Source: a virus
Length of the DNA stretch: 35,316 bases
Reading direction: 5' to 3' (one strand)
Virus record (IMG/VR): IMGVR_UViG_3300046782_000946
Location: 1-35,316 of that record
How positions within the stretch are numbered: position 1 is the stretch's first letter; every line of letters starts with the position of its first letter. The translations under genes were made by a program, and so were the position numbers. Under the pieces are notes generated by a model. It was not told the origin of the DNA and ran no database searches. It worked only from the letters and a program-made list of their open reading frames with translations. Of this stretch, positions 21,814-35,316 are shown in pieces.

Positions 21814-21837
21814 TTCGGTAGGATCAATCCTACCGAA
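21814..21837. repeat. Perfect inverted repeat, 11-bp arms
   Basis: TTCGGTAGGAT and its reverse complement are separated by CA. The near-absence of a loop favours a dimeric protein-binding site over an RNA hairpin. The arm ends in TAGGAT, the same core as the CTCGATAGGA copies around it, so one protein may bind all of them. Confidence 0.8.
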
Positions 21838-22118: not shown

Positions 22119-22142
22119 TCCTATCGAGATTACTCGATAGGA
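22119..22142. repeat. Inverted pair of CTCGATAGGA elements
   Basis: TCCTATCGAG and CTCGATAGGA form perfect 10-bp arms around ATTA. This is the most symmetric pair of the repeated element in the region and a good candidate for a dimer operator. It lies 50 nt downstream of the HNH gene end. Confidence 0.75.
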
Positions 22143-29492: not shown

Positions 29493-29540
29493 GGGAGCGA
29501 GGCCTACGACCACGGGTGGCGGTGAACAGGCCTCGCTCCC
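29493..29540 (+). repeat. 13-bp-arm hairpin in the 29.4-29.6 kb gap
   Basis: GGGAGCGAGGCCT (29493-29505) and its exact complement (29528-29540) enclose a 22-nt loop. It lies seven bases before the larger palindrome. With the short C/T tract after it, it could act as a weak terminator for the gene ending at 29421. Together the two stems would make a highly structured RNA leader. Confidence 0.75.
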
Positions 29541-29546
29541 ACCCCC

Positions 29547-29589
29547 CTTTCGTCAAACTGGGTTCTGCCAGAACCCAGTTTGACGAAAG
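29547..29589. repeat. Perfect palindrome, 21-bp arms with a one-base centre
   Basis: Both arms (29547-29567 and 29569-29589) are exact complements around a single C. It ends 15 nt before the GTG of the next gene; GAGGAG ribosome binding bases overlap its edge. The very small centre suggests either a protein dimer/tetramer site or a cruciform/long hairpin that could shut translation. The core is repeated exactly inside the 3' end of the following gene. Confidence 0.9.
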
Positions 29590-29879
29590 AGGAGAGAGAC
29601 GAACGTGACCCAGCTAGTCAAGTATGATGCAGCCAAGAAGGCATTGGCGGAGGCCAAGCGCGTCGACGAGGTCCTCAAGATCGAGGAGCTGGCCAAGCGC
29701 ATGGCCGCCTACGCCAGGCAGGCCAAGGATACCCAGATGATCCAGGACGCAACGGAGTTGCGCCAGCGGGCGGAGCGCAGGCTCGGCCAGATGATGGAGG
29801 AGGCGAAGCAGAAGGGAGAGCGAAGAGCAGATCGGAATAAGGGGAAAAACTGGGTTCTGCCAGAACCCAGTTTGACGAA
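29555..29879. repeat. 33-bp exact direct repeat flanking the 92-aa gene
   Basis: The 33 bases at 29555-29587 recur without mismatch at 29847-29879, 292 bp later. The second copy is the last coding part of the gene, including the codons for WVLPEPSLTK, and keeps 13-bp inverted arms. The first copy is non-coding. Flanking bases differ, so this is not a long duplication. Recombination between copies would delete the gene. Confidence 0.9.
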
Positions 29880-29883
29880 GTGA
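29605..29883 (+). CDS. Truncated coiled-coil protein (early phage family)
   Basis: 92 residues from a GTG. The layout LVKYDAAKKALAEAKRVDEV...ELAKRMAAYARQAKD...ATELRQRAERRLGQMMEEAKQ matches a family common in alphaproteobacteria and their phages. There the coiled coil is usually followed by a segment like PTLADxGIDKxLADRAR and a further 60-100 residues. Here the chain stops at PEPSLTK, exactly inside the repeated palindrome, so the C-terminal part appears lost. In the other frame, codons continue as SKGGSETRR, possibly a remnant. Family and truncation are from memory of the pattern. Confidence 0.7.
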   Translation: MTQLVKYDAAKKALAEAKRVDEVLKIEELAKRMAAYARQAKDTQMIQDATELRQRAERRLGQMMEEAKQKGERRADRNKGKNWVLPEPSLTK

Positions 29884-34539: not shown

Positions 34540-34659
34540 ATGGGCCGCCCGATGAAACGCCAGCCGAACGTAAAGCGCGAGCGCCCGGCCGCTGCGGTCG
34601 AGAAGCGCCGGCTCAAGACGATCAAGCGGCGTGCCGGCAAGCGCGCGAAGATGCACTAG
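34540..34659 (+). CDS. 39-aa highly basic protein
   Basis: About half of the residues are Arg or Lys (KRQPNVKRERPAAAVEKRR, LKTIKRRAGKRAKMH). A GGAGG ribosome binding site sits five bases before the ATG. Probably a nucleic-acid-binding peptide; it resembles no specific family. Last plus-strand gene before a terminator. Confidence 0.5.
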   Translation: MGRPMKRQPNVKRERPAAAVEKRRLKTIKRRAGKRAKMH

Positions 34660-34684
34660 GATTGCAGGTTCTAGAACATCAATC

Positions 34685-34727
34685 GCGGTGAGAGCCTTGG
34701 ACCGTCCCCGCTCACGGTTTTTATTTT
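34685..34727 (+). terminator. Probable intrinsic terminator
   Basis: CGGTGAGAG and CGCTCACGG pair over seven of nine positions around a 15-nt or so loop, followed by GTTTTTATTTT. It ends the plus-strand operon, and the minus-strand genes end just beyond. The stem is imperfect. Confidence 0.5.
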
Positions 34728-34793
34728 GGCTTGGTTCTCCGTAAGGCGCCGGGGCGCGCCGCGACCAGAATTGTTGCCGAGTGATGCTGGACC

Positions 34794-34890
34794 TCAGCAC
34801 GGTTTGCAGATCGGCGGCGGCCGCGGCGGGTAGGGCTGCAGCGGCTGCATCCGCTCATAGGACGGAGCGTCCGACCCCGTCTCCGCGTCA
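34794..34890 (-). other. +1-frame tail of the 58-aa membrane protein
   Basis: Past the CGC TGA stop, the +1 frame is open for 32 codons to a TGA and ends PLQPYPPRPPPICKPC. No ATG, GTG or TTG start exists upstream in this frame before the membrane protein's stop; the only ATG is 18 codons from the end. The strong match to the tail at 22.68-22.75 kb and mostly synonymous differences in the shared core argue for translation, most simply by +1 frameshift at TTCGCTGAC. Confidence 0.5.
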
Positions 34891-35064
34891 GCGAATGGGG
34901 CTCCCGAAATCGTGCCACCCGAGCAGGCCGATCAGGATGAACAACACGATCCATGAGCCGAACGTGCGATAGGGATTGGGCTCGGCTGTCCAGGGTCCGA
35001 CACCCCAAACGCCGAAAACCAGCACAATCACGTAGATCAGCCAGAACCAGATATTGGCACCCAT
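34888..35064 (-). CDS. Two-TM microprotein, second of its kind
   Basis: 58 residues. TM1 is about 5-23 (IWFWLIYVIVLVFGVWGVG), a Pro-rich loop PWTAEPNPYRTFG, then TM2 about 37-50 (SWIVLFILIGLLGW). GGGAG precedes the ATG. Topology and length match the 57-aa protein at 22.75-22.92 kb, and both end in a CGC TGAC stop with the conserved +1-frame tail. Likely holin- or envelope-related. Follows the partial coiled-coil gene by 11 nt. Confidence 0.62.
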   Translation of the reverse strand: MGANIWFWLIYVIVLVFGVWGVGPWTAEPNPYRTFGSWIVLFILIGLLGWHDFGSPIR

Positions 35065-35075
35065 GGTCGAGCTCC

Positions 35076-35316
35076 CTACTTCGACGGGTTGATGTGCAGT
35101 TCCTTGGTCATCACATCGATGATCCGCTCAAGCCGCGAGGTGTTGCGTTCGGTTTCTTTTTCGAGAACCGTCAGGCGATTGTTGATCTCCGCGAGATGCG
35201 GCGAGCCGCGCACCTCCAGCGTCACGACCCGCGTTTCCAGCCGCACCATGTAGGCGGTGACGCTCAAACCCGCCGCGCCGATCGCAATGGCCTGCGCCAC
35301 CAGAAAATAGACGAGG
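35076..35316 (-). CDS. Membrane-anchored coiled-coil protein, 3' part (runs off the right edge)
   Basis: The frame is open through the right edge, so the N-terminus lies outside. The visible part starts with a TM helix (LVYFLVAQAIAIGAAGLSVTAY), then a coiled coil (ETRVVTLEVRG, EINNRLTVLEKETERNTSRLERIIDVMTKEL). This one-TM plus coiled-coil plan resembles XhlA-type or i-spanin-like lysis proteins. It is followed by the 58-aa two-TM gene, so this may be a lysis pair. Confidence 0.62.
   Translation of the reverse strand, partial: LVYFLVAQAIAIGAAGLSVTAYMVRLETRVVTLEVRGSPHLAEINNRLTVLEKETERNTSRLERIIDVMTKELHINPSK

Follow-up and report, generated by a model that had tools for sequence, protein, structure and literature searches.

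Binding sites that lie inside the gene of their own reader are already known from a few replication initiators. In phage lambda, ori is a set of inverted repeats in gene O to which O dimers bind (PMC5043065), and in repABC plasmids, oriV lies within repC (PMC3155836). In the ParB and Noc proteins with their sites parS and NBS, the sequence of the palindromic site varies with a few residues in the DNA-binding domain (PMC7383237). The locus described here is found in the IMG/VR virus record IMGVR_UViG_3300046782_000946, of which positions 1 to 35,316 were analysed as one stretch of 35,316 nucleotides (the window). It carries a palindrome in two copies, one just before a gene for a 92-aa protein and the other within the last codons of that gene. 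From the homologues of this gene, we consider it likely that a family of helix-turn-helix (HTH) proteins has this palindrome as its DNA target, nested in the linker codons of the family's own gene; in the window phage, the gene would have been truncated and the site copied upstream. The features of the locus are listed below by their positions in the window.

29493-29540 (no strand): separate hairpin, GGGAGCGAGGCCT, a 22-nt loop and AGGCCTCGCTCCC, with 13-bp arms, directly upstream of the 43-bp palindrome.
29547-29589 (no strand): 43-bp palindrome CTTTCGTCAAACTGGGTTCTG-C-CAGAACCCAGTTTGACGAAAG, with 21-bp arms and a 1-nt centre.
29547-29589: the same palindrome, viewed as the upstream dyad copy with its arms extended to 21 bp; it separates the upstream hairpin from the ribosome-binding site.
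29589-29597 (+): likely Shine-Dalgarno stretch GAGGAGAGA, read from the sequence, at the end of the right arm.
29605-29883 (+): 92-aa ORF with a GTG start, encoding the N-terminal helical domain and linker, with its stop just before the position of the HTH in homologues.
29847-29879 (+): 33-mer AAACTGGGTTCTGCCAGAACCCAGTTTGACGAA, identical to 29555-29587, consisting of the dyad plus GACGAA on its right side.
29847-29873 (no strand): coding dyad, a 27-bp perfect palindrome (13+1+13) in the linker codons, with the core GGGTTC n5 GAACCC.

The original prediction had claimed a perfect palindrome with 21-bp arms 15 nt before a gene, and an exact 33-bp copy with 13-bp arms which forms the last codons of that gene. 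Both were confirmed, the former at 29547-29589, with 15 nt between the palindrome and the GTG start codon of the 92-aa ORF, and the latter at 29847-29879, where the 33-mer encodes the ending ..NWVLPEPSLTK-stop. The separate hairpin and the 43-bp palindrome share one intergenic region of 183 nt. When the 13-mer arm was searched with 2 mismatches allowed, only the four arms were matched, and a count of 4 was reached in no shuffle. In addition, an arm longer than 9 bp was observed in none of 3000 synonymous recodings of the 92-aa gene. The palindrome and its repeat are therefore not explained by chance. Two further near-perfect palindromes, TTCGGTAGGATCAATCCTACCGAA and TCCTATCGAGATTACTCGATAGGA, were noticed at positions 21814-21837 and 22119-22142, in a low-GC stretch of the window with few ORFs.

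The same locus was found in four other IMG/VR contigs (L003-L006), which are 99.6-99.9% identical to the window over their overlaps. Both dyad copies are complete in L005. The other three contigs, L003 (at its end), L004 (10660-10672) and L006 (11700-11735), terminate within the intergenic palindrome, with the final bases garbled in two of them, which looks like a failure of assembly or sequencing at a strong hairpin. An assembly artefact was ruled out as the source of the repeat, since two assemblies contain both copies and five contain the coding copy. A hairpin telomere (protelomerase) site was considered because three contigs end in the palindrome; it was set aside as the palindrome is read through in two contigs, has an odd centre and is better explained by the family dyad described below. 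Identity between the window and all four sister contigs was observed to stop at 34591, where the sister contigs continue with other sequence; the last 725 bases of the window (34591-35316) may represent a strain difference or a misjoin.

No third copy of the repeat was found in the window or in the sister contigs. A search for the 33-mer in other phages and hosts, as had been proposed, gave no convincing copy in 50,697 phage records, 72,556 plasmid records and 84,980 genomes, and a host or plasmid origin was set aside as nothing convincing appeared in the plasmid records or the prokaryote genomes. A core search of the 84,980 genomes returned one intergenic palindrome of Nodosilinea, in a genome without the wider pattern; with 18 fixed bases in 257 Gb, about 3.7 chance matches are expected by our own arithmetic. 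Since four sister contigs have the locus as well and the repeat occurs nowhere else that was searched, neither an assembly error of this record nor a dispersed element accounts for it. Loci neighbouring ThyX (L027 and L028) were also considered for comparison; they were dropped as their listed ORFs do not include P0001 and ThyX has no comparable palindrome beside it.

In a profile search, residues 6-81 of the 92-aa protein were found to match phrog_33995 (E=1.2e-10), a family without an assigned function, and the protein shows up to 60% identity to IMG/VR homologues. A longer homologue is encoded by two Synechococcus phages and many more were obtained from pattern scans of IMG/VR; cyanobacterial genomes gave one weak match in 292. 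The homologues are built from an N-terminal helical domain, a variable linker and a short HTH-like domain with the consensus PTLAxxGIDKxLSxRAQK, followed by an MT-A70 or Dam adenine methyltransferase or by a coiled coil. Most family members carry the methyltransferase domain, and in the members that do not (the coiled-coil type), a DNA helicase gene is often located directly next. The window ORF ends immediately behind the dyad, at the point where an HTH would be expected to start, and an HTH profile search of the window and its sister loci gave nothing convincing. The window gene appears to be a truncated member which has kept the site. Another homologue ORF, at 1501-1770 of L038, ends in the linker like the window gene but has no clear palindrome.

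The AlphaFold2 model of the L082 homologue (mean pLDDT of 84) consists of two long helices, a coil linker and an HTH-like pair of helices at residues 98-101 and 105-116. The first residue of the recognition helix (X1) is located at the start of the second HTH helix in this predicted model. No significant match to the modelled N-terminal domain or HTH was found among the solved structures of the PDB, and therefore no fold is named for them. Pfam reported no ParB domain in the ten members scanned. In L162 and L208, an HNH-nuclease-like sequence was noticed after the N-terminal domain in place of the HTH.

We examined the linker in 104 homologous loci, non-redundant at 80%, and scored a dyad where at least 9 of 11 pairs were complementary at distances 3-13 from the centre. 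An odd-centred dyad of about 27 bp was found in 76 of the 104, whereas the even-centred control gave 5. About 4 linker dyads would be expected from the flanking DNA, where 97 dyads were found elsewhere in 331 kb. A linker hairpin score of at least 9 was observed in 44 of the 104 homologues, compared with a mean of 3 and a maximum of 7 in synonymous-codon shuffles, and the hairpin frequency per 100-nt bin was 0.016 in flanking DNA as against 45/104 for the linker bin. A clear dyad is absent in 28 homologues, although most of these retain the HTH. The geometry is a single central base, flanked on either side by 2 unpaired positions and then by the complementary positions 3-13, with pairing at background level at distances 1-2 and from 15 outwards. 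The coding copy of the window (13+1+13) has the same geometry and the same linker position.

The linker palindromes occupy the same place in the homologues but differ in sequence between phages, and the dyad occurs in all three reading frames. As an example, in several classes the same core is found in two or three frames where it encodes different residues. Protein coding is therefore not the explanation for the dyad. When the class patterns were searched in 50 whole contigs, 38 linkers were matched and only two other places, so that there is as a rule about one site per contig. L048 has three sites, all within its linker. Successive related dyads were noticed both there (1735-1862) and in the linker of L037 (two, at 1755-1879), as would result from a duplication of the site inside the gene.

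The near-uniqueness of the site bears on whether the palindrome could be a selfish or mobile element (a Rickettsia palindromic element, REPIN or MITE) inserted in frame. Such elements in Rickettsia do insert in frame into coding genes (PMC10969869), and a palindrome read in frame in a tolerant linker, with an exact second copy in the window, would agree with this. However, the dyad is restricted to one gene family, one position and about one copy per contig, and little sequence is common between phages beyond the core that matches the HTH. The REPIN-like mobile palindrome of the original prediction is not borne out either, as only two copies were found, both at this gene, and none convincing elsewhere. 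We regard a mobile element as most improbable.

The dyad cores were found to sort into classes which follow the HTH. KDLSS helices occur with GGTCGT and YDLSS with CCTCGT, KKLSS mostly with GGTTCC, RKLSS often with TGTTCC, and KNLA or KHLA helices with GGGTT, GGGTC or GGGGTA. Tallies of residues against bases were made on 58 sites. Lysine at X1 was observed with GG in 44 of 44 cases and tyrosine with CC in 3 of 3, while of the 10 arginine cases, 5 had TG and the remainder had different outer bases (GG in 3). The DLS helix was found with TCGT in 11 of 11 cases. In the tyrosine members (L105, L136 and L141), the GG of the site is replaced by CC, and this holds across two reading frames; judging from their sequences, these members are a natural specificity switch. 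The window site, GG-GTTC, belongs by its sequence to the class apparently read by K..LA helices.

A coupling scan compared every alignable protein column with every half-site position. The columns of the recognition helix coupled best, where X1 was coupled to distances 7 and 8 (z of 11 and 15), X2 to distance 4 (z of 15) and X4 to distance 6 (z of 37); X8 was also top at position 6. Columns of the N-terminal domain had a median z of about 0-0.7 in the same scan. On a tree of the N-terminal domain, all 10 independent X1 contrasts changed the outer bases, and both sites were as coded in 10 of 15 X2-class contrasts. The closest X1 contrast was between L200 (K with GG) and L118 (R with TG), at an N-domain distance of 0.03. 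These independent contrasts indicate that relatedness does not explain the coupling of helix and bases, and a partial Mantel test agrees (site with HTH given N-domain, 0.24, p 0.001; site with N-domain given HTH, 0.07, p 0.08). Pairing is as strict in the outer arms (distances 9-13) as in the core, but no protein column couples to them; hence they are read by a part of the protein outside the alignment, or the pairing itself matters.

These paired and uncoupled outer arms would also suit an RNA hairpin in the transcript, possibly bound by the family's protein, which might act in stability, pausing, termination or translational control. The stem of 10-11 bp with a 5-7-nt loop is consistent with such a role, and the window leader folds well below its shuffles (z of -7). 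A hairpin would not require the strictly odd centres (76 vs 5 even) or the fixed core-to-core distance, however, and the core bases follow the HTH helix. Furthermore, G-U-type pairs are no commoner than A-C (8 vs 18), though RNA of the sense strand would tolerate G-U. The lack of a G-U excess together with the unexplained odd centre makes a role in RNA less likely. An intrinsic terminator was rejected, as there is no terminator-like call at either window copy and the right arms are followed by GACGAA without a T run. No Rfam family matched the window at the gathering threshold. We consider the RNA hairpin quite unlikely on the whole. The pairing in cis with the mRNA end that had been suggested is possible in that both window copies can pair, but it gains nothing from the family stems, which have no sense-strand preference for G-U.

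If the dyad is the DNA target of its own HTH family, as we prefer, the target would be placed in the linker codons, after the N-terminal helical domain and before the HTH, and a dimer would read two half-sites 11 bp apart. This distance between half-site centres, about one helical turn, would suit a dimer. X1 would read the outer two bases (7-8 from the centre), and the second and fourth residues of the helix would read the inner bases (3-6). The protein would most likely bind its own gene, and in the window phage also the DNA just upstream, and so limit its own transcription. Autoregulation is a default guess for the purpose of the binding, and the second copy in the window lies directly before the ribosome-binding site, where an operator could act. 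The operator bound by the gene product which had been proposed is thus consistent with the family, in which the dyad follows the family's own HTH helix and the site lies inside the gene of its putative reader at the sequence level. It does not hold for the 92-aa protein itself, which ends before the HTH. We infer that the window gene was cut short at the site and lost its HTH, and that the site was kept and also copied, with extended arms, before the ribosome-binding site. If the window copies still work, their reader would be supplied in trans. No reader of the K..LA class appeared in the window contig or in five sister contigs, all of which are incomplete, in a search that had no positive control.

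The missing HTH and the missing reader could also mean that the truncated gene and both window dyads are relics, without a present function, and that fold-back or template-switch copying gave rise to the upstream copy. Recent copying had also been part of the original prediction, and in agreement with it, a second copy just upstream of the gene was found only in this phage among the 104 loci. The longer arms would be expected from copying back across a hairpin. On the other hand, both dyads are still perfect and the upstream dyad is placed exactly before the ribosome-binding site. We find this reading of the window copies doubtful, though with appreciable weight.

The DNA target could also be an origin of replication or a site for partition that is recognised by the protein of the same gene, in the manner of lambda ori in gene O. 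The precedents of gene O (PMC5043065) and of oriV in repC (PMC3155836), the presence of about one site per contig and the DNA helicase gene that often directly follows the non-methyltransferase members would support this role. However, the site is a single dyad and not an iteron array, no A+T rise was seen near it, and most members carry a methyltransferase domain instead. An origin or partition site is rather unlikely in our judgement.

Tentatively, the family may be viewed as a widespread phage module in which a reader, in many cases joined to an adenine methyltransferase, would have essentially a single target in the genome, located in its own linker codons in any frame. The module might set the start of replication, partition or a methylation-linked control, with a code that can be read from sequence. 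Reader and target would then move and evolve as one unit. The nested site, the readable code and the frame independence of this family were not found described in the literature searched, which was limited to open-licence papers. A nested design of reader and site in a large unannotated phage family, many members of which are DNA methyltransferases, would provide a probable target for proteins without an assigned function. The diversity of the family is sufficient to derive a code from residue to base, and the predicted binding is directly testable. In addition, selection on a coding sequence at the DNA level can be separated here from selection at the protein level. The window phage would be a naturally occurring variant that has lost the reader and gained an upstream copy of the site.

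In comparison with known systems, the family resembles lambda O in that the putative sites lie inside the gene of the presumed binding protein and that a helicase gene follows the coiled-coil members. It differs from lambda O in having a single 27-bp dyad and not repeated sites, in the lack of a visible A+T-rich element and in its different protein, which in most members is fused to a methyltransferase. RepC is similar in that the origin is located within the coding sequence of the initiator (PMC3155836), but its oriV has no dyad and depends on a large A+T-rich region without iterons. As with ParB and Noc, the family site is a palindrome whose bases vary with a few residues of the predicted DNA-binding domain. 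In contrast to them, the ten family members scanned have no Pfam ParB domain, and the family site is nested in the gene of its putative reader. By profile, the window protein and its homologues are members of phrog_33995 and of the phage MT-A70/Dam methyltransferases with an N-terminal extension; these models give no function and no site and do not describe the linker dyad. Finally, the Rickettsia palindromic elements are also palindromic DNA that is read in frame as part of a protein. They are scattered over unrelated genes, whereas the dyad of this family is tied to one gene family and to one position.
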